A DNA stretch of 64,000 nucleotides from Streptomyces aurantiacus (GTDB lineage: Bacteria > Actinomycetota > Actinomycetes > Streptomycetales > Streptomycetaceae), in contig NZ_LIPP01000135.1 of NCBI RefSeq assembly GCF_001418335.1, forward strand, positions 1 to 64,000, given 5' to 3'. The position numbers and the translations under genes were made by a program. The notes under the pieces were generated by a model that saw only the letters and a list, made by a program, of their open reading frames with translations, was not told the origin of the DNA and did not search any database. Shown here piece by piece: positions 1-36,219 of this stretch (within the stretch, counting starts at the first letter, position 1; the number at the start of each line of letters is the position of its first letter).

Positions 1-2559
1 GTGGGCGGGTCGGCCGGGGTGGGCAAGTCCCGGCTGGCTGAGGAGTGCCTGGAGCGGGCCGCGGCGGCGGGTTTCCGGGTGGGGCGGGCCACGGCGAGTG
101 CCGCGGCGGGTGCGGTGCCACTGGGGGCGATCGCGCATCTGCTGCCCGCCGGGGTGGACCTGTCCGACCCGGTTGCCGGGTTCGCTGCCGTCGCCGAGCG
201 GTTGGCCGCTGGGCCGGGGCGGCGGTGGGCGCTGTTGGTGGATGACATGCATCTGCTGGATTCGGCCTCGGCGGTGCTGCTGCGGGAGCTGATGGACTCC
301 GGAGTGCTTCTGCTCATCGGCACCGTCCGCAGCGGCGAGCCGTACGGGAAGGCCGTCGCGGCGCTGCGGGGCGGGGACACGGTGTACCGGGTCGACCTGC
401 CCGTACTGAGCACGGAGCAGATCGAGGCGCTGCTGCAGGCCGCGCTCGGCAGGACGGTCGCCCGGCGCGCCCTGCACGAGCTGTCGGCTGCGAGCGGCGG
501 CAACGTGCTGTACCTGCGCGAACTGGTTCTCGGCGCCCTGACCGCCGGGGATCTGACCGAGGACGGGGAGATCTGGCACTTACGCGAGGGCCGACTGCCG
601 GGCACCGCGCGGCTGACCGAAGTGATCGGCACCCGGCTGGCCACCGCCGATTCTGCCGGACGCCCTGTCCTGGAACTGCTGGCACTGTGCGAGCCGCTGC
701 CGCTGGCCGATGCCGAAGCCCTCGCCCCGCCGCAGGTGGTGGCAGCCCTGGAACAGGCAGGGCTGATCCGTGTCACCCAGGACCGGCGGCGCACCACCGT
801 CTCCCTGACTCACCCGCTGTACGGCGAGGTGCTGCGAGCCGGTCTGCCGGTCCTGCGCCGCCGGGCCCTGCTGCTGGACCAGGCCGCACGCGTCGAGGCC
901 CTCGGCGCCCGCCGCCGCGGTGACCTGCTGCACATCGCCACCTGGCGGCTGGCCGCCACGGGCACCGCCGACCCCGCCCTTCTCACGCAGGCCGCCGTAC
1001 TGGCTCGCCACGCGCACGACTACGCGCAGACCGTCACGCTCCTGGAGGCTCTGCCCGAAATGCACCGCACCACCGCAACCGGCTTGATGCTCGGCAACGC
1101 CTTCTTCGAGATGGGCCGCTGGGACCAGGCCGAGGCGGTGCTCGCCCGGGCCGACGCCCATGCCATCGGCGAGCAGGACAAGTTGGCCGTGGCCTTGGTC
1201 CGGACGACGAACCTGCTGTGGAGCAACGCCCCCGTCACCGAGGCACTCGCGATCAACGTCGCTGCCCTGGACCGGATCAGCAGTCCGGCGGGCCGCCGCA
1301 AGCTCAAGATCAATGAGGGCTTCATGCGGATCGCGTCCGGCCGGCCCGTCCGGGGGCTGGCCCTGCTGGAGGACCTGGAAACCGAGGTCGACGATGCCTC
1401 CGACGTCAACGCCTGGCTCCGAGGCGCTTGGATGAAGCCGTTCGGTCTGGCACTGGTGGGCCGCACCGGCGAGGCCGCGACCTGGGCGGAGCGCGCCCAC
1501 GCCGCCCACCGGCACGTCGACGAACACGCCCTGGTCTCCCATCCCGCCGTCCAGCGCATCCCGCTGGTCCTCGCTCTCACCGAAGCCGGTCTCCCGGCCG
1601 AAGCCCGCCGGGAGGGCGAGCGCGCTTACGCCGAACTGGTTGCCGCCGATTCCCTTGTGCGGGTCTGGATGGCGGTCTTCCTCGGCCGCGCCCAGTGGCT
1701 GGCCGGCCATCCGGCGACCGCCCGCCGATGGTGGGCCGAGGCCGCCGCTCTGGCCCGCACCTTCGACCACGCCATGGCCCTGCGCCCGGTGCTCGGCGGC
1801 CTCGCCGCCTGCGCGGCCGTGCTGGGAGACCTGGACGCGGCCGAAGCGTCGCTGGCCGAGCACCGCATCCTGCCGCCGCTGGCACCGGGCCTGCTGTCCG
1901 CCGGGGAGGAATGCCTGGGCGAGGCATGGCTGTTGGCCGCCCGCGGACGCCTGGGTCAGGCACGGTCCGTGCTCACCGCCGCCGCCCGCGCCGCCCGCTC
2001 GACCGGCCACCTCACCGGCGAGGCACTGCTGCTGACCGACGTCGCCCGTCTCGGCGGAGCGAAGGATGCCGCGGACCGGCTGGCCGAACTGGCCCAGAGG
2101 TGCGACGGGGCGTTTGCCCCCGCCCGGGCTCAGCTGGCGACGGCGCTGGCCGCCGATGACCCCGACCAGCTCCGCCAGGCGGCCGACGCGTGCCAGGCCG
2201 TCGGCGCCGACCTGCTCGCCGCCGAGGCGGCCACCGCGGCCGCGGCCGCCTGGCGCCGGACAGGCCAATCCCGCCGCGCCTCAGCAGCCGCCCACCGGGC
2301 CGCCGCAGTCCTGGCCCGCTGCGAAGGCGCCCGCACTCCACTTCTGACCACCGCCCAGGCCACCGCCCCGCTCACCACCCGCGAACGCGAGATAGCCCTG
2401 CTTGCCGCAGCCGGAAACGCCAGCATGGACATCGCCCGATCCCTGGCCCTGTCGGTGCGCACCGTCGACAACCACCTCCACCACGCCTACACGAAACTCG
2501 GCGTCACCACCCGCCGCGAACTGGCCCAGACCCTCAGGGCACCATCCCCCGGCGCATAG
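1..2559 (+). CDS. LAL-type LuxR family transcriptional regulator, 5' end outside the window
   Basis: This large ATP-binding LuxR (LAL/MalT-like) regulator is open from the first base. Its Walker A (GVGKS) lies about residues 6-10, far closer to the N-terminus than usual, so the true start is probably upstream of the window. A Walker B-like LLVDDMH follows near residue 80, then a long helical TPR-like region. The C-terminal LuxR helix-turn-helix (LTTREREIALLAAAG, then VRTVDNHLHH and YTKLGV) covers roughly the last 65 residues. LAL proteins usually activate a single local pathway, often secondary metabolism or sugar use; the target here is not visible. A TTA codon at 580-582 makes translation dependent on the bldA tRNA. 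The neighbouring lectin could be a target, but nothing proves it. Confidence 0.9.
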   Translation: MGGSAGVGKSRLAEECLERAAAAGFRVGRATASAAAGAVPLGAIAHLLPAGVDLSDPVAGFAAVAERLAAGPGRRWALLVDDMHLLDSASAVLLRELMDSGVLLLIGTVRSGEPYGKAVAALRGGDTVYRVDLPVLSTEQIEALLQAALGRTVARRALHELSAASGGNVLYLRELVLGALTAGDLTEDGEIWHLREGRLPGTARLTEVIGTRLATADSAGRPVLELLALCEPLPLADAEALAPPQVVAALEQAGLIRVTQDRRRTTVSLTHPLYGEVLRAGLPVLRRRALLLDQAARVEALGARRRGDLLHIATWRLAATGTADPALLTQAAVLARHAHDYAQTVTLLEALPEMHRTTATGLMLGNAFFEMGRWDQAEAVLARADAHAIGEQDKLAVALVRTTNLLWSNAPVTEALAINVAALDRISSPAGRRKLKINEGFMRIASGRPVRGLALLEDLETEVDDASDVNAWLRGAWMKPFGLALVGRTGEAATWAERAHAAHRHVDEHALVSHPAVQRIPLVLALTEAGLPAEARREGERAYAELVAADSLVRVWMAVFLGRAQWLAGHPATARRWWAEAAALARTFDHAMALRPVLGGLAACAAVLGDLDAAEASLAEHRILPPLAPGLLSAGEECLGEAWLLAARGRLGQARSVLTAAARAARSTGHLTGEALLLTDVARLGGAKDAADRLAELAQRCDGAFAPARAQLATALAADDPDQLRQAADACQAVGADLLAAEAATAAAAAWRRTGQSRRASAAAHRAAAVLARCEGARTPLLTTAQATAPLTTREREIALLAAAGNASMDIARSLALSVRTVDNHLHHAYTKLGVTTRRELAQTLRAPSPGA

Positions 2560-2687
2560 CTGAGTAACGACTGCTCATGTGCTTCCCCACCGGCACGAGC
2601 AGGATCTCCTCCGGGGATACGCCGGCCACTGCCCCCAGGAACGTGTGGCAGTGGCCATGGCGACGACTGTCCAAGAGGAGAAAAAAA

Positions 2688-3191
2688 ATGACCAAGTACC
2701 GCAGAGCCGCGACAGTTCTCGGCGCCACCGCACTGCTCGGCCTCGGCTTCACGGCCACACCCGCGTCCGCGGTGACATACACCCTGGCGATCAACTCCGA
2801 GAGTGTGAAGTGCCTGGACGTTCCGCAGAACAGCAACCGTGACAACCAAGGCATCGAGCAGTACGGGTGCAACGGCAACGGCAACCAACTGTGGACACGG
2901 GAATCCCAGGGCAACGGCTTCTACCATCTCATCAACCAGAACAGCCGCAAGTGCCTGGACGTTCGCGACCACAGCACGAACGACAGGGCGGTTGTGGTGC
3001 AGAACGGCTGCAACTCCGAATTCAGTCAGCAGTGGCAGCTTCAGCAAGTGGGCGTGGGGTTCCAGCTGGTGGCGCGCCACAGTGGTAAATGCGCGACGGT
3101 TGCCAACTCAAGCCTGTCCGACAAGGCCGGGATCATCCAGTTCCCCTGCGGTACAACGGGAACCCAGAGTCAGAACTGGCAGTTCGGCTGA
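2688..3191 (+). CDS. Secreted ricin-type beta-trefoil lectin
   Basis: This 167-residue protein is predicted to be secreted and to bind carbohydrate. Residues 1-28 form a Sec-type signal peptide (KYRR, a hydrophobic core, then ATPASA before the cleavage site). The remainder is a single ricin B-type beta-trefoil of about 140 residues with the repeating Q-x-W signatures NQLW, QQW and QNW and three KCLDV or KCATV strands. No catalytic domain is attached, which is unusual because these modules normally accompany glycoside hydrolases. The ATG at 2688 is chosen over an upstream in-frame start at 2577 because AAGAGGAG lies about 7 nt before it and the signal peptide begins there. A transposase remnant starts immediately after the stop codon. 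Confidence 0.85.
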   Translation: MTKYRRAATVLGATALLGLGFTATPASAVTYTLAINSESVKCLDVPQNSNRDNQGIEQYGCNGNGNQLWTRESQGNGFYHLINQNSRKCLDVRDHSTNDRAVVVQNGCNSEFSQQWQLQQVGVGFQLVARHSGKCATVANSSLSDKAGIIQFPCGTTGTQSQNWQFG

Positions 3192-3213
3192 CCCGAAGCC
3201 GCGGCTTTCAGAG

Positions 3214-3840
3214 GCGGTCCGAGTTCTGAAGATCGGCAAGGACTCTGCCGTCAAGGCGCGCGTCCAGGCCGTGAACCAGCTCAAGGCCGTCCTCGCCAAC
3301 GCTCCTGCGGGGATGCGCGAACCGTTGGATGGCCTGGCCGTGCCGCGGCTCCTCGCCTGGTGCACCACGCTCGCACAGGACGGACTCGGGGCTGCCGAGT
3401 CCGCCGTCGTCCACACCCTGCGCCGACCGGCACGGCGCATCCAATACCTCGACGCGGAGATCAAGGACGCCCTGGATCAGATGACCGGCCTGATCGCGCA
3501 GGCGGTGCCGGCTTTGCTGCAGCTTCAGGGCATCGGGCCGGACTCGGCGGCCGCCTTGCTCATCGCGGCGGGGGACAACCCCGACCGGCTGAGGGGCGAG
3601 GCGTCCTTCGCTGCCTTATGCGGGGTCAGCCCTGTCGAGGCGTCTTCCGGAAAGACCAGCCGCCGCCGGCTCAACCGCGGCAGCAACCGGCAGGCCACCG
3701 CAACCCTGTTCCGGGCGGTGCTCTCCCGTCTGCGCTGGGACTCTGCCACCCAGGAGTACCTCAAGCGCCGGACCGCCGAAGGCTTGTCCAAACGGGAGAT
3801 CATCCGCTGCCTGAAGCGCTACCTCGCCCGAACCGCCTGA
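3214..3840 (+). pseudogene. IS110-family transposase remnant (C-terminal part only)
   Basis: The frame encodes the C-terminal IS116/IS110/IS902 domain: a helical region (AVKARVQAVNQLKAV), the helix-hairpin-helix-like LQLQGIGPDSAAALL, and FAALCGVSPVEASSGKTSRR with its downstream serine region. The N-terminal DEDD catalytic domain, normally about 180 residues, is absent, so it cannot encode an active transposase. The frame is open upstream into the lectin gene in another frame, but that part is only a shadow. The homologous part begins within about 25 nt of the lectin stop codon, so the deletion or insertion endpoint lies right at the lectin 3' end. No terminal repeats were recognised. Confidence 0.75.
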
Positions 3841-4050
3841 CCGCGCGCCGACGCCACGGCACGCCCACCCTCGGTCGCGTTCTGCGGTTACCGCCGGGAC
3901 GGTTGGAAGGTTCAGTTGCCGGTGTCGCCAGAACGTGACCCGCAGGGGGGGACATCTTCCTATTCCGGCTGCAGGCCCGGTGGAGGCTGCGTCTTACTCC
4001 CTTCAGCTGAGGCCCGGCGCACACGGCGGGCAGGGAAGGGGACAGGGGCT

Positions 4051-5150
4051 GTGAAGTATTCGCTGAGTGACAAACAGTTGGAGCTGCTGAAGCAGGTGGC
4101 GGCAGCGTCGAAGGCGTTCGAGGTACAGGGCGCACACAGCGGTGTGCTGTGGGCGCTTCAGCAGCGGACGCTGGTGAAGACCGGCTACGGAAGCGCAGGT
4201 CGTCGGACCGCGGTCGTCACGGCTGATGGCCGTTTTCTATCTCAAGCACGGGAAGCATCCCAAGGAGGCGGAAGCGCAGAAGCCGCGGCTGAAGGACGAC
4301 CCGGCCCAGGCTGCTCTCGCACCGGCGGACGGGCCTGCGCTGCTGGTCCGGATCCGTGAAACCGGCGGAACACTTACCGTGCCGGATTGCGGGCCCAAGA
4401 CCCGCGCCCGCTGGCGGGCGGCCTACCAACGCGCACTGCAGCACGGGCATGTCCCCAACGGCTGCAAGCTGCGGGTCACGGGCCGGGACAAAGGCGACAT
4501 GGTCCTGAAGATCGTGGACGAGCAAAGTGCCCCATGAGCCCACACCCCAGGAACTGCGCAACCTCGAGAAGAATCCCTGGGCGCGCAAGCCCCCGAAGTA
4601 CGACCACCATCCCGACGGCCGCCTCAGAATCGCGTCCCCCCCAGCTGAACAGCTACTACAGCCCGGCCTACAGCTGCGCGGACGGCGCACGGTGGAAACT
4701 GGAGGACCGGCTCGGTCACTTCCTGCGCGACCTGGACCAGGTTGCCGTACACGCCGAACAGCGAAGCATCCCGAAGGAAGAGGAAGAGGCCGCACGCAAG
4801 CGGAACTGGTACAAGGCGCTGCGCCAGGCCCGTACAGCCCAGATCACGCAGCACCGCGGGGCAGTTCTCACCGGTCAGGTGGAACGCTGGCGCCTGGCGG
4901 AGGACATCCGGGCGTTCTGCTCCGCAGCCCGCCGGGCGGACGTCGCGGCGGACTGGACGCAGTGGGCTGAGCAGTACGCGACGTCCATCGACTCGCTCGC
5001 CTATGCCCTCGCCGTTCCTGCCGATCCTCCGGCCGCACCACACGACCTGCGCGACTGCTTCAGAGGCGACACCTACGCCTATCCGTGGCCGTTCGGCAAA
5101 GATGGCACCCGGCTGTGTGGGTGCCAGCCTGCCACGGGACAGCCGCAGGT
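4051..5150 (+). pseudogene. Frame-broken gene of a Streptomyces hypothetical-protein family
   Basis: A conserved-looking protein is spread over three frames. It starts at GTG 4051 (VKYSLSDKQLELLKQ), moves to a second frame near 4232 (FYLKHGKHPKEAEAQ to IVDEQSAP, ending 4537), to a third from 4527 (PHEPTPQELRNLEKNP), and back to the first near 4635 (RWKLEDRLGHFLRDLDQ to AYPWPFGKDG, about 5110). From memory, intact relatives are single proteins of roughly 400-500 residues, which would also imply a deletion near 4530. The switches fall at short homopolymers, for example T4 near 4234 and C7 near 4636. The function of the family is unknown. I call it a decayed gene, though draft-assembly indels cannot be excluded. 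Confidence 0.6.
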
Positions 5151-19585: not shown

Positions 19586-21169
19586 ATGTCACACCGTCCG
19601 CCGAGCCCGTTCCCCGGCCGTCGCAGTGTCCTGCGCGGCTCGCTCGCCGCGTCGGCGGCACTCGCGCTGCCCTCCGCCGTCGGCGCCGCGGCTCCGGCGT
19701 TCGCCCTGTCGGGGCGGCCCCAGGCGCGATGGGGCGTGCAGGCGGGCGACGTGACCACGAACTCCGGCCTGGTGTGGGCCCGCTCGGACCGCCCCGCACG
19801 CATGATCGTGGAGACCTCCGCGACCGAGTCGTTCCGCAGGCCGCGAAAATGGCACGGACCGCTCCTGGGCGCCGGCACGGACTTCACGGGTACGGTCCCG
19901 CTGCACGGCCTGCCGGCCGGGGAGCAGATCCACTACCGGGTGACGCTGGCCGACCCGGACGACTACCGCCGCACCGGCGAGCCCGTGCCGGGCACCTTCC
20001 GGACCGCGCCCTCGAAGCGGCGCCAGGACGTCCGGTTCCTGTGGTCCGGCGACATCGTGGGCCAGGGCTGGGGCATCAACCCGGACATCGGCGGCCTCTA
20101 CGCGTACGAGGAGATGCGTCGCCTGAATCCGGACTTCTTCCTGTGCAGCGGCGACACGATCTACGCGGACGGCGCGCTGTCGGCGTCCGTGACGCTGCCG
20201 GACGGCCGCATCTGGCGGAACGTCACCACCGAGGAGAAGTCCAAGGTCGCCGAGACCCTCGCCGAGTACCGCGGCAACTTCCGCTACTCGCTGCTCGACG
20301 AGAACGTACGCCGGTTCAACGCGCAGGTTCCGACGATCACCCAGTGGGACGACCACGAGGTCACCAACAACTGGTACCCGGGCGAGATCCTCACCGACGC
20401 CCGCTACACGGTGAAGGACGTCGACACGCTGGCCTCCCGCGCCCGCAAGGCGTTCAGCGAGTACTTCCCGATCTCCACCCTGCCCGCCACCGGTGCGGAG
20501 GGCCGGGTGCACCGGGTGGTGCGCCACGGTCCCCTGCTGGACGTCTTCGTGCTCGACATGCGTACGTTCCGCAACGCCAACTCCCCCGGCCGGCAGACCG
20601 ACGACACCACCGGCATCCTGGGAGCGGAGCAGTTGGCCTGGCTGAAGCGGGAGCTGGCACGCTCGCGCGCGGTGTGGAAGGTGATCGCCTCCGACATGCC
20701 GCTCGGCCTGGTCGTACCCGACGGTTCGACGGACATCGAGGCCGTCGCGCAGGGCGACCCGGGCGCGCCGCTCGGACGCGAACTGCAGATCGCGGAGCTG
20801 CTGCGGTTCGTCAAGCACCGCCGGATCACCGGCACCGTGTGGCTGACGGCGGACGTGCACTACACCTCGGCTCAGCACTACGACCCCTCGCGTGCGGCCT
20901 TCAAGGACTTCGCGCCGTTCTGGGAGTTCGTCTCAGGGCCGCTCGCCGCGGGCGGTTTCCCGGCGAACGCGCTGGACGGCACGTTCGGTCCGGACCGGGT
21001 CTTCGTCAAGGCGCCGACGACGTCGAACGTCTCACCGATGGAGTCGCCCCAGTACTTCGGCGAGGTCGACATCGACGGTGGCAGCGGTGAACTGACGGTC
21101 CGTCTGCGGGCGACCGGCGGATCGGTGCTGTTCACGAAGGTGCTGCAACCGGGGCGCGTGGGGCAGTAG
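19586..21169 (+). CDS. phoD: Secreted alkaline phosphatase D (PhoD), Tat substrate
   Basis: This is a metal-dependent phosphodiesterase or phosphatase exported to scavenge phosphate. The N-terminus has a Tat signal (GRRSVLRGSLAASAALAL) with cleavage near AFA. An N-terminal PhoD domain (about residues 45-145) precedes the catalytic metallophosphatase. Metal-ligand segments are FLWSGDIVGQG, FLCSGDTIYADG, TQWDDHEVTNNW and TADVHYTSAQHYDP. The 527-residue length is normal. ATG 19586 has AGGAGG 6 nt upstream. A candidate PHO box lies upstream. The gene is separate from its neighbours and monocistronic. Confidence 0.93.
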   Translation: MSHRPPSPFPGRRSVLRGSLAASAALALPSAVGAAAPAFALSGRPQARWGVQAGDVTTNSGLVWARSDRPARMIVETSATESFRRPRKWHGPLLGAGTDFTGTVPLHGLPAGEQIHYRVTLADPDDYRRTGEPVPGTFRTAPSKRRQDVRFLWSGDIVGQGWGINPDIGGLYAYEEMRRLNPDFFLCSGDTIYADGALSASVTLPDGRIWRNVTTEEKSKVAETLAEYRGNFRYSLLDENVRRFNAQVPTITQWDDHEVTNNWYPGEILTDARYTVKDVDTLASRARKAFSEYFPISTLPATGAEGRVHRVVRHGPLLDVFVLDMRTFRNANSPGRQTDDTTGILGAEQLAWLKRELARSRAVWKVIASDMPLGLVVPDGSTDIEAVAQGDPGAPLGRELQIAELLRFVKHRRITGTVWLTADVHYTSAQHYDPSRAAFKDFAPFWEFVSGPLAAGGFPANALDGTFGPDRVFVKAPTTSNVSPMESPQYFGEVDIDGGSGELTVRLRATGGSVLFTKVLQPGRVGQ

Positions 21170-21358
21170 TTCGCCTGCGTCACGCCACCCCGGCTCTCGT
21201 ACTCCCGGCTCCCGTACTCTCGTACCCCGTGCCGCGTACCGGCGTCATCCCCCAGTACGCGGCACGTCTGCGTTCCCGGGCTCCCGGGTTCCCCGTTGTT
21301 CCCGTGTTCCCGGGTCTCACATTGCTCCCGAGTCTCCCGTTTCCACAGGTCAGAGCGA

Positions 21359-21381
21359 TTGTCAGTGGTCGCCTCTACGGT
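21359..21381 (+). promoter_or_regulatory. RecA-NDp (PafBC-type) DNA-damage promoter
   Basis: TTGTCAGTG (21359-21367), exactly 8 nt, then TACGGT (21376-21381) matches the published actinobacterial motif TTGTCRGTG-N8-TANNNT at every defined position. The -10 box lies 6 nt before ATG 21388, so the transcript is probably leaderless. In mycobacteria this motif is recognised through the WYL-domain activator PafBC in response to DNA damage. Confidence 0.8.
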
Positions 21382-21387
21382 TTTTCC

Positions 21388-22791
21388 ATGACGCGATCGA
21401 TGCAGGCCGTGGCCTACACCCGACCCTCCACGCTGGAATCCGCACCGGGCGGACAGCGCCTGGGACTTGAGACCTCGCGGGGGACGACACCCCACGGTGT
21501 CGAGGACCATCCCCGTTTCTTCGCGGGCTTCCTGACGTCGCCTCAGGTCGCGTCGGCGGGACTCCTCGCGGTCGCCGACGTGGCGAGTGCGCGCTACTAC
21601 CAGCGGCAGCTGCGGTCGTCCCTTGACCCGGTGGTCACGGGCAACGGCGACCGGTTGCGCTTCGAGTCCTTCTCCGGCTGCGGCGGAGTGTACGCGCGTC
21701 TGGACGTGCTGGCGGCCGGTCTGGACGGCGGCGAGGTGGGGCACGGCACGACGAACGTCGACGTCAACAACCCGCTGCGGGACGCCCTGTCGAGGATCGG
21801 TTCCGACGATCCGCTGCACCTGCGTGTCGGCCCGGACGAGATGGCCGTGACCACCCTGGACGGTCCGGTCGTGGAGAAGAAGGTGCCGCTGCCGGACCGC
21901 TGGCTGCGGGGGTTCGCCGAGGCCCAGGTGACGGCGGCCGGTTTCGACCTGCGGGCCGAACTGCCCGCGGCAGAGGCCGTACGGTTCCTGCGCTCGCTGC
22001 CCCGGGCCGACGCGCGCGGCGCCTCCCGGGGTGCGCAGTGGGTGGTGCCCGCGGGACGCGTTCTGCGGCCCACGACCCGGCCGGTGCCCGGAGCCGTCTG
22101 TCTCCCCGGCCCCGAGCGGCTGATCGCCCTCCAGAGGGTTCTCCGCCATGCGTCGGCCCTGCGGGTGTACGGTCCCGCGCTCACCGGGTCCGCCGCGGCG
22201 GCCAGTGCCTGGGAGGTCGCGCTGCCCGGAATGCGGCTCACGCTGACGCTGTCCCCGGAGGCCTCCCGGGGCTTCTCCGGTGAGGGTGGCGTGCTCGACG
22301 CGCTGGCCACCGACGAGGCGGCCGAGGACGCGGAACTGACAGCGGTGCTGCTGGCGTGGGAGCCCAGGATCGATGTCGGGGACCTGTCCGCCGCCTCGGG
22401 TCTGTCCGCCGAGCGGGTACGAGCGGCCCTCGTCCGGCTGGGCACCTCGGGACGCGTGGGCTACGACACCGCGGAAGCCGCCTACTTCCATCGTGAACTC
22501 CCTTACGACGCCGAGCGGGTGGAGCGGCACAACCCCCGGCTGCGGGCCGCCCGGGACCTCGTGAGGGCGGGCGCGGTGGTCCTGGACGGCGTCCTCGGCA
22601 CGGTGACCGCGCAGGACGGGCACGCGCAGCGGGTGCGCGACGACGCGGGGGTGCTGAGCTGCAGTTGCCTGTGGTGGGCCAAGTACCGGGGCGGGCGCGG
22701 ACCGTGCAAGCACGCGCTGGCGGTACGGATGGTCCGCCGCGGCGCGCCGTCCGGACAGGCTGAGGTTCTGCTCGACGGGGGTGTGCGTTGA
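21388..22791 (+). CDS. SWIM zinc-finger protein
   Basis: This 467-residue protein carries a C-terminal SWIM zinc finger (about residues 425-442) with ligands in CSC and, after a 13-residue spacer, CKH. A predicted helix-turn-helix-like segment (DLSAASGLSAERVRAALVRL) lies before it. The rest is a domain of unknown function. SWIM fingers bind DNA or proteins and occur with SNF2 helicases and recombination factors. The frame opens at 21229, but ATG 21388 is chosen because the damage promoter ends 6 nt before it. The next gene starts within its stop codon (TTGA), so the two are coupled. The family commonly pairs with the downstream helical protein. Confidence 0.85.
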   Translation: MTRSMQAVAYTRPSTLESAPGGQRLGLETSRGTTPHGVEDHPRFFAGFLTSPQVASAGLLAVADVASARYYQRQLRSSLDPVVTGNGDRLRFESFSGCGGVYARLDVLAAGLDGGEVGHGTTNVDVNNPLRDALSRIGSDDPLHLRVGPDEMAVTTLDGPVVEKKVPLPDRWLRGFAEAQVTAAGFDLRAELPAAEAVRFLRSLPRADARGASRGAQWVVPAGRVLRPTTRPVPGAVCLPGPERLIALQRVLRHASALRVYGPALTGSAAAASAWEVALPGMRLTLTLSPEASRGFSGEGGVLDALATDEAAEDAELTAVLLAWEPRIDVGDLSAASGLSAERVRAALVRLGTSGRVGYDTAEAAYFHRELPYDAERVERHNPRLRAARDLVRAGAVVLDGVLGTVTAQDGHAQRVRDDAGVLSCSCLWWAKYRGGRGPCKHALAVRMVRRGAPSGQAEVLLDGGVR

Positions 22792-25565
22792 GCGGTGAGG
22801 TGTTGGTGAGCGAGGGGGTTTCGGTGAGGGGCGAGGCGTCGGTGAGCGGAAGCGGGGCGGTGTCGGTGAGCGGGAGTGGAGCGGTGGCGGTGGCGGTGGC
22901 GGTGAGTGACGCGGTGTCGGTGAGTGACGCGTTGCTGAAGGCCGTACGGGCGGGGCGGACGAGCGAGGTGGTGAGTCTGCTGGACGGGATGACGGACGCC
23001 GAGCGCCGGCTCTGTCTGCCCGTGCTGAAGGAGCTGCGCAAGGAGTTGCGGGTCGCGCCCTGGGACGCCAGGTCCCGCGAGGCGTATCCCACACTGCACG
23101 CGGCCGGGGCGGCCTGCCACACCGGAGCGGCCGGGGCGGCGACCTGGCTCACCGCGGCGGACATGCGCTGGTCGCAGGCGTCTCCCGCGGTCCTGCTCCA
23201 TGTGCTGGGCGACCGGGGGCAGGACTGGCTGGGCAACCTCACGCGGCGACTCGCCGACCGCCCGGAGACCTCCCAGGTGCCCTACGAGCTGATGGCGGGA
23301 CTGGTACGGCTGTCCCGTTGCGCGGTGCCGACGACGGAGACCTACGTCGTGGGCTGGGTCGAGCAGATCGGCAGTCTGTGGGAGCGCGGCGACACCGTCC
23401 TGCAGCGCCTTCGCCAGGATCCGTACATGGCGGAGCTCGTCCCCGCCCTCTTCGAGATCCCGGACATCGGCAGCCACCTGGACTGGCTCTTCGGTGACGG
23501 TCCGGACAGTTGGTTCAACGCTCTCGCGACGCTCACCGAGGAAGGGTTCCTCGACCGGAAGGTCATGATCGACGCCTGCGTCGCCAGGTTGCTGCGCGGC
23601 TCCGTGGCATCCGACTGCCGCGTTTTCCTCAAGCTTCTCAAGGCACTTGAGCCGAGCCGGGACGAGGAGCGGCAGCGTGCCTCCGACTGGCTGGCGCTCG
23701 TCTCCCACGCGGCCTCGGCCGTGGCGTCGCACGCCCAGTCGGTACTCGGCGCTCTGGCCCTGGCCGGCGAGGCCACGCCCCGTCAGCTCGCCGAGATGAC
23801 CTCCGTCGTGCTGTTCCGCCCGGAGAAGAAGATGGTGCGTGCCCAGCTCGTGCTCCTCGGGAAGGCGCTCCGGCGCGACCCGTCGAGCGCGGCCGAGCTG
23901 CTGCCCGCGGTGGCGCAGGCCTTCGGGCACGAGGACACGGACGTGCAGGAGCGCGCGCTGAAGCTGGTGGAGCGGCACATCGGCGCGGTGGACCCGCGGG
24001 CGCGCGGTGAAGTGGCCGAGGGCGCCGTCCAGTTGAGCGCCGGACTGCGAGCGCGTGCCGTCGCGGCCCTGGGCCTTGACGCGACCGACCTCGCGCCGCA
24101 GCCGTATCTGGAGCTGCTGCCGCCCGTGCCGTTGCCGGCACGGCTCGCGCCCGCGCCGGACTCGGTGACCGAGGTGGCCGAGGAGGTCGGGGCCCTGCTG
24201 GTGTCCGCCGACGGTGACACGGCGGCGTTCGAGCGCGCCCTGGACGGTCTGGTGCGGCACGCCTACCTGCGCCGGGAGGAGCTGGCCGAAGCCCTGCGGC
24301 CGGTCGCGGCACGGAGCTGGTGGATGGACACCGAGCGTCATCACCACTCGCCGGACGAGTACTTCCGCAACGCGCCGCACGGCCTTGAGCTCGTGCTCGC
24401 GGCCCTGCTCGGCAGGGTGCGTATGTCCACGCTCCAGCGGGCCGACCGGCACGGGCCGACGTCGAACAACTGCGTGCACAGCGCCCTGGCCGCCGTCCTC
24501 GACGCGCGCCTGTGGGAGGCGGCCCATCGGGTACGGACCGATCCGCTGCCGTTCCTCCTGGCCACGCCCACCTGGTCGTCGGGATTCCTGGAGCCGGACG
24601 AGTTGGTGGCCCGCCTCGGCGAGTACCACCGGCTCGGTGCAAGGCCCGGGGAGGCCGACTTCACCCAGGCGCTGCTCCGGTTGCGCCGCGACGACCGGGC
24701 GGTGGCCGCGTCCGCCGCCGAGCGGGCCGCCGCGCTCGGCACGACGGAGGGCCAGCGGCTGGCCCGATGGCTCACGGGCGAGGGCCTGGCGACGCCCACG
24801 AGCAGACGACGCGTCTCGGCGACGCACATCCTGCTCGAACTCGGCGAACTCGACGGACTGCCGGAGGACCTCCCCCAGGCGTTCCGTCAGCTCGGCCTGC
24901 CCGTGGGTGTCCACGGGTCGCGCAGATACTGCCACCACTACTGGAACCCGGTCGAGCAGCAGCACTGGCTGGCCGTGCTGCCCGGGTGGCGGGAGATGGT
25001 GGCCGCGCGCCTGATGCGCGAGCTCGCCACGGTCGCGGTGGAGGACACGCGAGGCGCCGCCGCGGTCCTGCCGCTGATCGCCGAGGCGGAGGGCGAAGCG
25101 GGAGAGGCCGTGCACCTCTGTGTGGCGTACGGGCTGGGCGCGCGCCATCCGGAGGACCGGCTCAGCGCGGTGGACGCCCTGCTGGTCCTCGCCGCGCGCG
25201 GGCACTTGGACGCCGAGAAGCTCGGCACGGACCTGGCACAGCTGGTGCGACGCGGCGCGGTGAAGCCCCTGCGGCTGGCCGAGTCCGTACAGACCGCGGC
25301 GACGACCGGAGCGTACGGCACCGTCTGGTCGATACTCCGGGCCGCGCTGCCTGTGCTGCTCGCGGACCTCGCGTCGGAGGGCGCGGCTCCGGCCGCCCGC
25401 GGGTTCGGCGAACTGCTGGCCGTCGCCGCGGAGTGCGCCGAGCGGACCGAAGCGCGCGGCGACGTGGCACACCTCGGGCCGGTGGCGGAGCGACGGGGTT
25501 CGTCCCGGCTCGTGACGCAGGCTCGCCGGCTGCGTACGGCGTTGGAACAGGAGGTGGCCGCCTGA
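22788..25565 (+). CDS. Large helical-repeat protein partnered with the SWIM protein (DUF6493-like)
   Basis: The 925-residue product is almost entirely alpha-helical with HEAT-like hydrophobic periodicity (for example LLPAVAQAFGHEDTDVQERALKL read as helix pairs). It has no catalytic motif, signal peptide or membrane span. It resembles the proteins I know as DUF6493, usually encoded next to SWIM proteins; that name is from memory. The TTG start at 22788 overlaps the SWIM stop. The first 44 residues are repetitive (VSGSGAV, VSDAVSV) and come from DNA repeats; conserved sequence begins at DALLKAVRAGRTSEVV, so GTG 22920 is an alternative start. Its role is probably scaffolding in DNA repair or stress response, by association only. 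Confidence 0.75.
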   Translation: MSGEVLVSEGVSVRGEASVSGSGAVSVSGSGAVAVAVAVSDAVSVSDALLKAVRAGRTSEVVSLLDGMTDAERRLCLPVLKELRKELRVAPWDARSREAYPTLHAAGAACHTGAAGAATWLTAADMRWSQASPAVLLHVLGDRGQDWLGNLTRRLADRPETSQVPYELMAGLVRLSRCAVPTTETYVVGWVEQIGSLWERGDTVLQRLRQDPYMAELVPALFEIPDIGSHLDWLFGDGPDSWFNALATLTEEGFLDRKVMIDACVARLLRGSVASDCRVFLKLLKALEPSRDEERQRASDWLALVSHAASAVASHAQSVLGALALAGEATPRQLAEMTSVVLFRPEKKMVRAQLVLLGKALRRDPSSAAELLPAVAQAFGHEDTDVQERALKLVERHIGAVDPRARGEVAEGAVQLSAGLRARAVAALGLDATDLAPQPYLELLPPVPLPARLAPAPDSVTEVAEEVGALLVSADGDTAAFERALDGLVRHAYLRREELAEALRPVAARSWWMDTERHHHSPDEYFRNAPHGLELVLAALLGRVRMSTLQRADRHGPTSNNCVHSALAAVLDARLWEAAHRVRTDPLPFLLATPTWSSGFLEPDELVARLGEYHRLGARPGEADFTQALLRLRRDDRAVAASAAERAAALGTTEGQRLARWLTGEGLATPTSRRRVSATHILLELGELDGLPEDLPQAFRQLGLPVGVHGSRRYCHHYWNPVEQQHWLAVLPGWREMVAARLMRELATVAVEDTRGAAAVLPLIAEAEGEAGEAVHLCVAYGLGARHPEDRLSAVDALLVLAARGHLDAEKLGTDLAQLVRRGAVKPLRLAESVQTAATTGAYGTVWSILRAALPVLLADLASEGAAPAARGFGELLAVAAECAERTEARGDVAHLGPVAERRGSSRLVTQARRLRTALEQEVAA
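22796..22934 (+). repeat. GGTGAGYG/GGTGGC coding microsatellite
   Basis: Degenerate 6- to 9-bp repeats (GGTGAGCG, GGTGTCGGTGAG, GGTGGCGGTGGC) encode the low-complexity N-terminus of the large helical protein. The units stay in frame, giving Val-Ser-Gly and Ala-Val runs. Confidence 0.7.
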
Positions 25566-31925: not shown

Positions 31926-34916
31926 TCAGCCTGCGCCCCGCTGCCGGACCACCGACCCCGACCGCCCCTTCACGACCTCCAGTTGCGCATGGATACGTCG
32001 CCGCAGGTCCGCGACGTGACTGACGATGCCGACGCTGCGGTCCCGCTCCCGCAGCGAGTCGAGCACGTCCAGGACCTCGTCGAGCGTCTGGTCGTCGAGG
32101 CTGCCGAAGCCCTCGTCGATGAAGAGCGTGTCGAGGCGTACCCCTCCCGCTTCGTCGGTGACGACGTCCGCGAGGCCCAGCGCGAGTGCGAGGGAAGCGA
32201 AGAACGTCTCACCTCCGGAGAGCGTCGCCGTGTCACGCTCACGCCCGGTCCAGGCGTCCACGACATGCAGCCCGAGGCCGCTGCGGCCACGCCCGGCCCG
32301 GTCGTCGGAGTGGACGAGGGTGTACCGCCCGGCGGACATGCGCCGCAGCCGGGCCGTGGCGGCTGCCGCGACCTGTTCCAGACGGGCGGCGAGGACGTAC
32401 GACTCCAGGCGCATCCTGCGTTCGTTGTCCGCGGAGGTGCCGGCCGCGAGCGTCGCGAGGCGGGCCACGCGGTCGTGCTCCTCGCGCAGCGGCCCCAGCC
32501 TGCGGACCGACGCGGTGGCCCGCTGGGTCAGCCGGTCGAGTTCCGTGCAGCGGCGGAGGGCCGCGTCGCGCGCGGAGGCCGCCTCGCGCACCCGCCGGAC
32601 GGCCACGGCGGCGGTCTCCTCGGCGGCCCGCACGTCGGCGGCCGGCCGGTGCGCGGCGGCTGCCGTCTCCGCCTCCGCGAGCACCGCGCGGACCGTCGCC
32701 TCCTCCTGCTGCCAGGCGTCGAGCCTGCGTTGCAGCTCGCGGTGGGCCACGTCGTCGAGGAGGGCGTCCGCGGCGGCCTGCGGCGTGTCGAACCCGGCGC
32801 GGAAGGCCGCGTCGGCGAGTCGCGCGTCGGCGTCCTTGAGCCGCTGCGCGGTGTCCGCCGCGACGCGCGCGGCGTCCGCTGCCTCCGTGAGCGTCGAGAC
32901 CAGCCGCTCCAACTGGGCGGCCCGCTCGGCGACACTGCCCGCCGAGCCTCTGGCCTGCGCCAACTCCCCTTCTAGGGCCGCCGTTTCGCGCGCCAGGGCG
33001 TCCCTGCGCGCGGCCCGGGAGGCGCCGCGTACGGCGGCCTCCTGGTGGGCGGTGAGCCGGCGCCCGTGTTCGTGTTCGGCCTGCCGGAGTGCCTCGCCGG
33101 CCGCGTGCAGCCCGGAGGCGGCGGCCCGCGCCTCGGCGTGTCGGCGCTCCAACTCCGCGGCCTGCTCGGCGAGTCGGCCGGTGGGCGTGTCTCCCGCCTC
33201 GGCGGTCGCGGCGGCCAGCGCCTCGCGCACCACCCCGAGCCGCCGCTCCTCCTCGGTGCGCTGCTCGTCGGCGCTCTGGTAGGCGGCGAGCGCGGCGTCC
33301 TCGGCCCGCTGGTCGATGTGCCCTTCGACCTTCCGGGCGGGAACGGGGTGCTCGGTGGCACCGCAGACGGCGCAGGCCTCACCGTCCACGAGGCCCGCGG
33401 CGAGTTCCGCGGCGATGCCCGCGAGGCGCTGTTCCTTCAGGTCCAGCCAGTGGGCGCGCGCGTCCGTCGCCCGTTCGCGAGCGGCGAGCACGCGCGCGTG
33501 GGCCTCGTCGGTGTCCCCGGCGAGCTGGTCACGCAGCCGGGCGGCCGACAGCCGCGACCGGGCGGGGTCGCGCTGGACCGCGAGCTGTTCGGCGCGGGTG
33601 GCGGCCTCCTGGGCTTCCTCGATACGGGTCTGGAGGCCGGCCCTGCTCGTCTCCCACTGGGAGAGCCAGTGCTCGGTGTCCTGCAGCACGTCGTCGTCGG
33701 CGCGCTCCTCGCGGTCCAACGCCTGGCGTGCGGTGGCGAGTTCGGCGAGCCGGTGCTCGCCGCGGCGGGCCGACTCCAGTCCGCCCAGCTCCTCGGCGGC
33801 CTTGCGCGCGGCGGTCGCGAGGCCCGTGGCCCCGGCGTCGGTGAAGGTGTCGGGCAGCTGGGCACGCGCGCGTGCCTCGGCGTCGGCCGCCCGCCGGTGC
33901 TCGGCCCCGGTCGCGTCGCGCAGCCCGAGCGCGGGCGCCACCGCTTCGGCCTTGCGGGCCCGCTCCATCCGGGTCCGGTCCTCCCTATGGGCCCCGGAGC
34001 GCTCTTCAAGGCGGGCGGCCCGCTCCCGTGCCTCGGCGAACCGGTGCTGGAGCCGCGCCACTTCGCGTACGTCCTCCAGTACGCGATCCGCGGCGGCCTG
34101 AGCCGACTCGGTGGCCGACTGCGCGCACCGCGTGATCGTGAACCGTTCCCGGGCCGTGCTCCTGGCGATCGCCGCCCACTCCAGAACGGCCTCGGCGAGC
34201 CCCGGGGCACCGGGGGCCAGATCGGGCAGCGGCAGCTCGACGAGGTCACCGGCGGCCTGCTGCATCCGGTGGGCGTCGGCGAGCAGCTCGGCGTCCCCGG
34301 CGCGCACCCGCGTCTCGGCCGCGCGCCTGCGCTCGGCCAGGCGCTGCTCGACGGCGGCGAAGCGCCGGGTGTCGAAGAGGCGCCCGAGCAGTTTGCCGCG
34401 GGCCTCGGCGTCGGCCCGCAGGAAGCGCGCGAAGTCGCCCTGCGGCAACAGCACGACCTGGCAGAACTGCTCGCGGCTCATCCCGAGGAGCTGGGTGATC
34501 TCCTCGCCGATCTCCTGGTGGGAGCGGCTGAGGTCCTTCCAGGAGCCGGCGGGCACGTGGTACTCGCGCAGCCAGCTCTGTGCCTTCTCCGTCGTGGTGC
34601 CCGTGCCGCGCTTCTTGGGGCGCTGCCAGGGCGGCTGCCGGGTCACCTCCAAACGGCGCCCCGCCACGGTGAGTTCGAGCTTGACCTCGGTGCGGGTGCC
34701 GGGCGGCGCGTGGTCGCTGCGCAGCGAACCGCCCTGCCGGGCGCCCGGCACGGAGCCGTACAGTGCGAAGCAGACGGCGTCCAGGACGGAGGTCTTGCCG
34801 GCGCCGGTCGGACCGTGCAGCAGGAAGAGCCCGGCGGCCGACAGGTTGTCGAAGTCCACCTCCTGGGTGCCGCCGAACGGCCCGAACGCGGTGATGTGCA
34901 GCCGGTGCAGCCTCAT
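31926..34916 (-). CDS. sbcC: Exonuclease subunit SbcC
   Basis: This SMC-like ATPase forms the SbcCD nuclease, which opens DNA hairpins and protein-blocked ends. The 996-residue protein has an N-terminal Walker A (GPTGAGKTS, residues 36-44) and the Q-loop LPQGDFARFL. Two long coiled-coil arms flank a zinc hook (CAVC in GEACAVCGATEHP). The ABC signature is TLSGGETFFASLALALG and Walker B is LDTLFIDEGFGSLD. GAGGGGG precedes ATG 34916; the frame is open a further 258 codons upstream, but that is sbcD in antiphase. It follows sbcD by 139 bp and is in the same operon. Confidence 0.95.
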   Translation of the reverse strand: MRLHRLHITAFGPFGGTQEVDFDNLSAAGLFLLHGPTGAGKTSVLDAVCFALYGSVPGARQGGSLRSDHAPPGTRTEVKLELTVAGRRLEVTRQPPWQRPKKRGTGTTTEKAQSWLREYHVPAGSWKDLSRSHQEIGEEITQLLGMSREQFCQVVLLPQGDFARFLRADAEARGKLLGRLFDTRRFAAVEQRLAERRRAAETRVRAGDAELLADAHRMQQAAGDLVELPLPDLAPGAPGLAEAVLEWAAIARSTARERFTITRCAQSATESAQAAADRVLEDVREVARLQHRFAEARERAARLEERSGAHREDRTRMERARKAEAVAPALGLRDATGAEHRRAADAEARARAQLPDTFTDAGATGLATAARKAAEELGGLESARRGEHRLAELATARQALDREERADDDVLQDTEHWLSQWETSRAGLQTRIEEAQEAATRAEQLAVQRDPARSRLSAARLRDQLAGDTDEAHARVLAARERATDARAHWLDLKEQRLAGIAAELAAGLVDGEACAVCGATEHPVPARKVEGHIDQRAEDAALAAYQSADEQRTEEERRLGVVREALAAATAEAGDTPTGRLAEQAAELERRHAEARAAASGLHAAGEALRQAEHEHGRRLTAHQEAAVRGASRAARRDALARETAALEGELAQARGSAGSVAERAAQLERLVSTLTEAADAARVAADTAQRLKDADARLADAAFRAGFDTPQAAADALLDDVAHRELQRRLDAWQQEEATVRAVLAEAETAAAAHRPAADVRAAEETAAVAVRRVREAASARDAALRRCTELDRLTQRATASVRRLGPLREEHDRVARLATLAAGTSADNERRMRLESYVLAARLEQVAAAATARLRRMSAGRYTLVHSDDRAGRGRSGLGLHVVDAWTGRERDTATLSGGETFFASLALALGLADVVTDEAGGVRLDTLFIDEGFGSLDDQTLDEVLDVLDSLRERDRSVGIVSHVADLRRRIHAQLEVVKGRSGSVVRQRGAG

Positions 34917-35055
34917 CGGGCCCCCTCGAAGCAGAGCCCGCCGGCCGCCGCGCCACGCAGACCACGCGGGCGGTCCGGGCCGTGCGGCCGAGTCGGACCC
35001 CCCGGGCTGAGCGGGTCGTCGTACGCGGTCACCTGGCTGATCGGGTCGTACGGAG

Positions 35056-36219
35056 TCACCTGGCGACCTCGCGGACGGTGTCGTCGGCGCGGACGGTGTC
35101 GAACGCGTCCTGGAGCACGGCCTGTTCGCGTTCGTCAGGGCCGGCGCCGCGCACGTGGGCCACGAAGTCCTCCGCGATCTGCTGGTCGCTGCGGCCCGCG
35201 AGCCGCCGCGCGTACGAGACGTCCGGGTCGTCGGGTGTCCGCTCCGGTTCGAAGACGAGGCTGAGCGTGTGCGGGAACCGCTCGACCAGGCGCGCCATGG
35301 GGTCGGCGGGGCGCACCGGGTCGGTGAGGGTCGCCTCGACCCACGCCTCCTCGTGGCGGGCCAGCTCCGGCTCGGCGAGCAGTTCCTCCAGCTCGCCCCG
35401 GATACGGGCGAGCGCGCGCGGTACGGGGCAGTCGAGGCGCTGGGCCGCCACCGAACCGTCGGCCCCCAGGTCGATGAGCCACATGCTCTTGCGGTGCTCG
35501 GTCTCCGAGAAGGAGTACGGCAGCGGAGAGCCCGAGTAGCGCACGCGCTCGGTGATGGTCTGGCTGCCGTGGAGATGACCGAGGGCGGCGTAGTCGACCC
35601 CGTCGAAGACCCCGGCGGGGACGGCCGCGACCCCGCCCACCGTGATGTCCCGCTCGCTGTCGCTGGCCTCGCCCCCGGTGACGAAGGCATGGGCGAGGAC
35701 GACGGAACGGGTGCCTTCCTGGCGGGTGGCGAGGTCGGCGCGCACCCGGTCCATGGCGGCGGCGAGCACGCTCTCGTGGCCGGCCTTCTCCACTTCGAAC
35801 TCGTCCTTCACCAGGGCCGGTTCGAGATACGGCAGCCCGTAGAAGGCCACGTCCCCGAAGGCGTCCTTCAGCACCACCGGAGTGCCGCAGGCCGCGGGCT
35901 CGGTCCGCAGGTGGATGCCCGCGCGGTCGATGAGCCCGGCGCCGACACCGAGGCGGCGCGCCGAGTCGTGGTTCCCGGAGATCATCACGGTGGGGACGCC
36001 GAGGCCGGCCAGGCGGTGCAGCGCGTCGTCGAAGAGTTCGACCGCGGCCAGCGGCGGCACGGCCCGGTCGTACACGTCCCCCGACACGACCACCGCGTCC
36101 ACGCCGCGCTCGCGCACGGTCGTGACGAGGTGGCCGATGAACTCGGCCTGGGCACCGAGCATGTTCACCCGGTGGAACGCCCGGCCCAGATGCCAGTCGG
36201 AAGTGTGCAGAATCCTCAA
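35056..36219 (-). CDS. sbcD: Exonuclease subunit SbcD (Mre11-like nuclease)
   Basis: This calcineurin-like Mn-dependent nuclease pairs with SbcC. The metal motifs are HTSDWHLGR (residues 5-13), VVSGDVYDR, ISGNHDSARR and a C-terminal GHLHGSQ (ALGHLHGSQ). The 387-residue length is normal. The start codon is TTG at 36219, reading LRILHTSDWHLG, with GGAG 7 nt upstream. The 139-bp gap to sbcC is longer than usual and contains an imperfect duplication of the end of sbcD (GCCAGGTGAC appears twice), suggesting a local tandem duplication after the stop codon. Confidence 0.95.
   Translation of the reverse strand: MRILHTSDWHLGRAFHRVNMLGAQAEFIGHLVTTVRERGVDAVVVSGDVYDRAVPPLAAVELFDDALHRLAGLGVPTVMISGNHDSARRLGVGAGLIDRAGIHLRTEPAACGTPVVLKDAFGDVAFYGLPYLEPALVKDEFEVEKAGHESVLAAAMDRVRADLATRQEGTRSVVLAHAFVTGGEASDSERDITVGGVAAVPAGVFDGVDYAALGHLHGSQTITERVRYSGSPLPYSFSETEHRKSMWLIDLGADGSVAAQRLDCPVPRALARIRGELEELLAEPELARHEEAWVEATLTDPVRPADPMARLVERFPHTLSLVFEPERTPDDPDVSYARRLAGRSDQQIAEDFVAHVRGAGPDEREQAVLQDAFDTVRADDTVREVAR

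Follow-up and report, generated by a model that had tools for sequence, protein, structure and literature searches.

Which signal turns on a pair of genes encoding a SWIM zinc-finger protein and a very large helical-repeat protein, and what would the two products do once made? The question is raised by an operon of Streptomyces aurantiacus that lies within positions 1 to 64,000 of contig NZ_LIPP01000135.1 (hereafter ‘the window’, i.e., the whole 64-kb stretch of DNA analysed) and is directly preceded by a box resembling the PafBC/RecA-NDp-type promoters of the actinobacterial DNA-damage response. We consider the operon a very probable member of a PafBC-type damage regulon, because the box is frequent in the genome while its reversed control is absent, stands before DNA-repair genes in a genome that carries pafBC, is conserved with the operon between species, and is missing from the chromosomal sites that lack the operon. 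For the fuller reading, that the operon is a PafBC-regulon member whose protein pair helps the cell to recover from damage as an accessory to repair or recombination, we estimate a probability of roughly 0.45.

The Box and the Gene Layout

The features of the locus, all on the plus strand, are as follows.

21359 to 21381: PafBC/RecA-NDp-type box TTGTCAGTG-N8-TACGGT (sequence, genome counts, and orthologue conservation), with TTGTCAGTG (21359 to 21367) as putative −35 region and TACGGT (21376 to 21381) as putative −10 element
21382 to 21387: gap of 6 nucleotides (nt) between the box and ATG 21388, without a Shine-Dalgarno sequence
21388 (ATG) to 22791 (stop): SWIM zinc-finger gene, 467 residues (open reading frame (ORF) list, Pfam SWIM, PADLOC SWIM_XIII, and hhalign)
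22660 to 22713: SWIM finger C425-x-C427-x12-C440-x-H442 (pattern, and ligand conservation in orthologues)
22788 to 22791: TTGA overlap of the two genes (sequence; a 4-nt overlap is also found in relatives)
22788 (TTG) to 25565 (stop): predicted HEAT/ARM-like solenoid gene, 925 residues, with DUF7824, DUF7825, and a weak DUF6493 match (Pfam, AlphaFold, and fold searches)
22788 to 22924: GTG-rich tandem-repeat extension at the N-terminus of the 925-residue ORF (repeat analysis and alignments of relatives)

A first-pass annotation of this DNA had proposed an exact damage-type motif ending 6 nt before ATG 21388, followed by a two-gene operon of a SWIM protein and a 925-residue helical-repeat protein joined by a TTGA overlap. 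Both the motif and the operon are present as described, with the reservation that the N-terminus of the 925-residue protein is uncertain. Read directly, positions 21359–21381 are TTGTCAGTG GTCGCCTC TACGGT, in the orientation of the genes and just upstream of the start codon. The box fits TGTCAG-N10-TA-N3-T, one of the Mycobacterium tuberculosis PafBC forms, which PMC8151990 gives as TGTCGG, TGTCAG, or TGTCAC followed by N10-TA-N3-T. It is the single site within two mismatches of TTGTCAGTG-N8-TACNNT in the window, where shuffled sequence gives 0.17. The longest frame of the SWIM ORF opens at GTG 21229, with ATG 21388 in the same frame; from the position of the box, a leaderless mRNA is predicted, its 5′ end at or next to ATG 21388, and the TTGA overlap would couple translation of the solenoid gene to that of the SWIM gene. 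No LexA box of the form GAAC-N4-GTTC was found in 21001–21420, where the best 14-mer has three mismatches to TCGAAC-N4-GTTC, and some of the S. venezuelae LexA boxes listed in PMC9380542 are themselves degenerate.

Promoters of this type have a published history outside mycobacteria. RecA-NDp promoters are reported to extend past that group (PMC8223512), and one that precedes the S. coelicolor macrodomain gene SCO6735 accompanies a 5-fold UV induction (PMC5087735; PMC9411070). Among the known promoters of this type (M. tuberculosis, M. smegmatis, and SCO6735 of S. coelicolor), the window box shares TGTCAG-N10-TA-N3-T with a form published for M. tuberculosis, in a genome that has genes for PafB and PafC; it differs in lying only 6 nt from the start codon, in an apparently leaderless arrangement. 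The passages of the PafBC/RecA-NDp literature examined do not name the window operon.

The Box Across the Genome and the Genus

We searched the 9.26-Mb genome (561 contigs) with the IUPAC pattern TTGTCRGTG-N8-TANNNT, using the same pattern reversed as a control; contigs, loci, and genomes carry our own numbers with the prefixes C, L, and G. The pattern has 29 exact sites, against 0 for the reversed form, and all 61 of the 61 genomes of the genus compared carry 11–44 sites each versus 0–1 reversed. Domain scans of the downstream ORFs, which left out those behind L004, L008, L016, and L024, placed 10 of the 29 sites upstream of genes with DNA-metabolism domains: recA, uvrA, uvrB, ruvC, uracil-DNA glycosylase, O6-methylguanine methyltransferase, dnaX, a RecD2 HHH gene, a DEAD helicase, and an intein-bearing thyX. 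Among the assigned ORFs, the start codon lies 6 to 9 nt past the box at 10 or more of the 29 sites, which indicates leaderless mRNAs. The putative regulators are encoded on C299, where a Pup ligase gene, two further ORFs, and genes for a WYL-WCX protein and an HTH_PafC-WYL-WCX protein lie together; by these domains, the genome has pafC and also pafB, the latter named by position and domains. The counts argue for a PafBC-type motif that is general in the genus Streptomyces, with S. venezuelae itself outside the comparison.

Several further sites precede ORFs with no domain or with unrelated domains, e.g., a sigma factor with an NTF2-like domain and a glyoxalase-family gene. Boxes before such non-repair genes speak for a role of the operon that lies outside both repair and defence and is instead regulatory or physiological under the same promoter, for instance that of an adaptor of transcription or proteolysis in damaged cells. 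Protein contacts are among the functions of SWIM domains, which would suit such an adaptor; however, no specific domain speaks in its favour, and with a third of the boxes (10/29) preceding DNA-metabolism genes we consider this role improbable.

Conservation of the Box at the Operon

The first-pass annotation would have failed had the motif not been conserved upstream of orthologous SWIM genes, and conservation was found. In 80 named Streptomyces orthologues of the SWIM protein (76–93% protein identity), the box is exact in 79 and differs at one position in the 80th. The gap between box and start codon is 6 nt in 65 and 7 nt in 14 of the 79 exact loci, and none of the 80 has a Shine-Dalgarno-like GGAG, GAGG, AGGA, or AAGG 18–4 nt before the start. 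Across the 79 aligned rows, which were picked for an exact box so that its fixed positions are 100% identical by construction, identity falls from 88% in the 8-nt spacer, of which there are 21 versions, to 70% over the 10 nt upstream of the box and to 49–52% over the next 50 nt.

The same was seen in 199 genomes drawn from the genus, its own genome included, of which 69 carry the SWIM gene at E ≤ 1e-40. The box is exact in 60 of these 69 and has at most one mismatch in 65. Fifty fit a strict pattern that joins the box to the first codons; the remaining 19, inspected individually, include 10 with an exact box and five whose box has a single mismatch. The other four are G078 (two mismatches), G104 (three), G121, in which no box is recognisable (best match, six mismatches), and G030, which was not assessable since its SWIM match does not cover the start. 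Conversely, G116 and G145 match the strict box pattern and show no SWIM gene at this threshold. Second SWIM copies in G127, G198, and G067 were kept outside the box counts; that of G108, 65% identical, has a box with two mismatches. Some of the counted genes are broken, as the SWIM match is split into two pieces in G064, G127, and G150 and interrupted by an internal stop codon in G144.

The operon has a fixed address, flanked by a PhoD phosphatase gene in 74 of the 80 named loci and by an ACT/GNAT gene in 79. We inspected 30 of 58 GNAT matches to compare occupied with empty sites. In 15 of these 30 genomes, the pair is absent, and in 11 of the 15 PhoD stands beside GNAT with a gap of 93–258 nt; none of these 11 gaps contains the box, the best matches having 4–6 mismatches. 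Among the remaining genomes without the pair, G033 has a broken solenoid remnant and three show neither PhoD-GNAT adjacency nor a remnant. Together, the 11 empty sites and the G033 remnant suggest repeated loss of the operon from a fixed chromosomal site, although gain is also possible. The G033 remnant (C27; L220, L235) is a decaying pair at the conserved site, of which solenoid pieces in different frames remain. The regulatory part of the first-pass annotation thus holds up at the level of sequence: the motif is non-random, keeps a fixed distance, is co-inherited with the operon, and is common to recA, uvrA, uvrB, and ruvC.

The Operon Beyond Streptomyces

An even draw across the phylum found the SWIM gene in 8 of 396 genomes; of the three outside Streptomyces, one has a box with one mismatch at 6 nt, one has a box with three mismatches, and one has no box. 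In Nonomuraea gerenzanensis, TGTCGGTG-N8-TATGGT, one mismatch from the strict form, lies 7 nt before the start. In another family of the class, the gene is present in 83 of 200 genomes, and the 30 best-scoring loci all have a solenoid match (30/30). With the strict box, three of these loci are exact, eight have one mismatch, five two, four three, nine four, and one five; a relaxed form, TGTCR-N11-TANNNT, which was picked after inspecting the sequences, occurs near the start in 25 of the same 30 loci versus 1 of 1140 control windows. Pairs annotated as SWIM plus DUF6493 were also found in the Proteobacteria Diaphorobacter, with two DUF6493 genes, and Asticcacaulis. Both lie on large plasmids, one of them next to an integrase gene and with a VapC toxin gene in the vicinity. 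The viral contigs searched yielded no relative of the SWIM family.

With these data, it can be asked whether the box is a chance match or a purely housekeeping promoter, leaving the operon outside damage control. Sigma-70-like −10 elements are common, and according to PMC9380542 a first search for the M. smegmatis PafBC motif suggested a lack of conservation in S. venezuelae. Against this stand the genome counts, the near-invariance of the box in the 80 orthologues, the 11 empty sites that lack it, and the recurrence of its relaxed form in the other family, which together make a fortuitous box very unlikely.

Other Genes Under the Same Box

The window operon does not stand alone behind such a box. 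A second SWIM operon on C334 (L018/L030), divergent from an AAA_5/MoxR-like gene, consists of a SWIM gene (2055–3407) and a DUF5691 gene (3442–5097) with an exact leaderless box. The box is exact in 29 of the 30 best-scoring of 57 listed matches and has one mismatch in the 30th, and this SWIM gene is present in 56 of 61 genomes, versus 69 of 199 for that of the window. The two operons share a SWIM protein, an exact leaderless box, and a partner gene of DUF type; they differ in that the zinc-finger segment alone aligns (24 columns) and in that DUF5691 takes the place of DUF6493. A third SWIM finger (C6; L034) has no box in its 3-kb locus, which covers 1.5 kb on each side, so that its promoter may lie outside.

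The same genome also has a Shedu gene (SduA, 509 bits; C260:924-2138; L017, L162) with an exact box 6 nt before its start. Six close copies, its own included, were found in 121 genomes, and the box is exact in five of the six and has one mismatch in the sixth. Upstream regions were inspected for 7 of 13 matches, the seventh of which, at 39% identity, lacks a box at the expected position. By these comparisons, the Shedu gene and both SWIM operons, that of the window and the second one, keep the box between species, and in Streptomyces DNA damage may control defence genes.

Several side observations were made in the course of these scans. The thyX gene behind a PafBC-type box (C227; L015:1564-3021) contains an intein with an HNH domain. 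Exact boxes also precede genes for DUF4132, DUF4253, YjbR, and PhoH proteins (C520, L025/L033; C411, L021; C357, L019; C441, L022), and a very long ORF of 1692 residues follows the DUF4132 gene. In the window itself, a long minus-strand ORF at 31926–35690, about 6 kb from the operon and with no box there in the window scan, looks SbcC-like and would be another DNA-repair-type gene.

The Solenoid Partner

In each of the 80 named loci, the gene after SWIM encodes a relative of the solenoid protein. The two genes overlap by ATGA in 71 and by GTGA in nine, and an ORF that opens in the 4-nt overlap, is at least 800 residues long, and is closed was found in 77 of the 80. In the window, a GTG-rich tandem repeat (22780–22924) adds about 46 residues after the TTG. 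The alignment starts at residue 37–49 of the window protein in eight of the ten relatives shown and at residues 8 and 11 in the other two, on which account the N-terminus of the 925-residue protein is uncertain and the GTG-rich extension is apparently not common to most relatives.

DUF7824 and DUF7825 score above their Pfam cut-offs and DUF6493 below its own. AlphaFold gives a nearly all-helical model with a mean predicted local distance difference test (pLDDT) score of 85.7, and by this model the partner is a HEAT/ARM-like solenoid. Foldseek returned as best match a chain of the Fanconi ID complex (E = 2.2e-4, TM-score 0.14), and the best VIA match was a designed repeat protein (Z = 13.3), most others being at about 10, a range common for helical repeats. 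These matches are generic for HEAT/ARM folds, and no function was therefore read from them; sequence searches of the PDB returned nothing useful.

The SWIM Protein and Its Kinship to Type XIII Retrons

The SWIM domain was identified by Pfam at E = 1.5e-5 (24.9 bits versus a cut-off of 19.6). Its C.C.{12}C.H pattern is present in 80 of 80 orthologues, and the four zinc ligands are invariant in all 11 aligned sequences, two of them from Proteobacteria. The kinship goes well beyond the finger: the PADLOC model SWIM_XIII matches residues 72–451 with 173 bits, and the scores of the two proteobacterial copies are much the same (176 and 169 bits). The window protein also led to a Methylobacterium plasmid locus in which WGR_XIII (836 bits), SWIM_XIII (706), and RT_XIII (584) stand in a row and which is, by the PADLOC models, a type XIII retron. 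When its SWIM protein was compared with the window SWIM family, hhalign gave a probability of 99.4 over 359 columns. By these profile matches, homology between the window SWIM protein and its counterpart in type XIII retrons extends over most of the window protein. The defining paper for this retron type is reportedly Mestre 2020. The equation of SWIM_XIII with retron type XIII is supported by the three-gene Methylobacterium locus and by PMC11953036, where ‘retron type XIII’ is named as a PADLOC annotation.

The operon and the retron thus share a homologous SWIM protein that lies beside a large helical-repeat protein. They differ as follows: the window operon has no detected reverse transcriptase (RT), and its partner is of another detectable family (DUF6493/7824/7825); the gene order is SWIM then solenoid in the window versus WGR, SWIM, and RT in Methylobacterium; and the window operon has a damage-type promoter, unlike the type XIII retron.

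This kinship suggests another role for the operon, that of a damage-gated defence effector: a type XIII retron-related module without RT that is not guarded by multicopy single-stranded DNA (msDNA) but is switched on by phage or other DNA damage and then blocks replication or kills the cell. The extended SWIM_XIII match is in keeping with this, as are the neighbouring WGR_XIII, SWIM_XIII, and RT_XIII genes of Methylobacterium, whose WGR protein also matches the HEAT-ARM_XIII models weakly, the Shedu gene behind the same kind of box, and the plasmid location of the two proteobacterial pairs. However, tblastn with one Methylobacterium RT_XIII protein, and likewise with the WGR protein, found 0 matches at E ≤ 0.01 in the window and in 114 related loci, whose flanks are mostly short (80 of up to 4.5 kb, 30 of about 1.5 kb, and four of 6–9 kb). 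The solenoid has no detectable kinship to the Methylobacterium WGR protein (hhalign probability 0.2) and no match to the HEAT-ARM_XIII models at E ≤ 1, and the operon is fixed between the same chromosomal neighbours. A defence role is, on balance, possible but rather unlikely.

A Proposed Role in Damage Recovery

The reading that we prefer, an accessory to repair or recombination within the PafBC regulon, can be rationalized into a series of steps. DNA damage would generate single-stranded DNA, leading to activation of PafBC, which would open the box to the housekeeping RNA polymerase. Transcription from a start at or beside ATG 21388 would give a leaderless mRNA, from which the SWIM protein would be made and, through coupled translation, its helical-repeat partner. 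The two may then form a nucleic-acid-associated complex, in which the SWIM finger and a possible winged helix contact DNA or the solenoid partner and the solenoid serves as platform, and this complex would aid recovery from damage. The winged helix is a hint at most, deriving from a weak DprA match in the Pfam scan of the SWIM operon (E = 0.045, below the cut-off). A SWIM zinc finger in a protein tied to recombination is also known from the Shu complex of eukaryotes (Shu2/SWS1).

Several observations weigh against this proposal. The AlphaFold model of the SWIM protein is poor (pLDDT 51), and no enzymatic domain was recognised in the operon proteins by the Pfam and PADLOC scans. The operon is dispensable, with no SWIM match in 130 of the 199 genomes of the genus, and the pair is not strict: a plasmid of S. 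cadmiisoli has a SWIM gene without an adjoining solenoid gene, and in G025 (L231), another decaying copy at the conserved site, the sequence behind the SWIM gene is too short for a full solenoid gene, most of which has been lost. Nor is the box universal. It is decayed or absent in G121, G104, G078, and the second copy of G108; G121 and G104 keep the solenoid partner, and the PhoD and GNAT neighbours are not within the 12 kb fetched. Two plasmid-borne Streptomyces copies, that of S. cadmiisoli among them, have no box, five of the 30 loci from the other family lack it even in relaxed form, and the proteobacterial pairs show no match upstream to the PafBC pattern or to simple alpha-, beta-, or Gram-positive LexA patterns. 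The negative S. venezuelae search mentioned above belongs here as well, and according to PMC9380542 a RecA/LexA-independent PafBC-like response in Streptomyces remains to be shown.

The first-pass annotation had called the module undescribed, and searches of the literature agree. No paper was found on SWIM proteins and DNA damage in Streptomyces, on SWIM with DUF6493, or on DUF6493, DUF7824, or DUF5691 in a search that covered open-licence papers, with most subscription papers outside it; among open-licence papers, nothing on retrons and SWIM was on topic by title. The operon combines a known class of promoter with a protein family known from retrons, and this RT-free combination was not found described in the literature searched. 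The kinship to type XIII retrons is new relative to that annotation, as are the two further loci behind such a box, i.e., the Shedu gene and the second SWIM operon. We regard the two genes of the window operon as a good candidate for a module of the DNA-damage response that has not been described before.

What would this mean for Streptomyces? The doubt expressed in PMC9380542 about a PafBC-like response in this genus can now be met with a set of promoters that can be tested, and two gene pairs, SWIM-DUF6493 and SWIM-DUF5691, are placed in a likely DNA-damage response. It is conceivable, if doubtful, that Actinobacteria turned a relative of a type XIII retron effector into a chromosomal, RT-free module triggered by a PafBC promoter in place of msDNA. 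If so, and if the second SWIM operon and the Shedu gene are counted in, PafBC would be a joint controller of repair and anti-phage defence in Streptomyces. More generally, a retron-associated family is linked to the control of chromosomal damage, which could help to show the targets of the SWIM and helical-repeat proteins of type XIII retrons.

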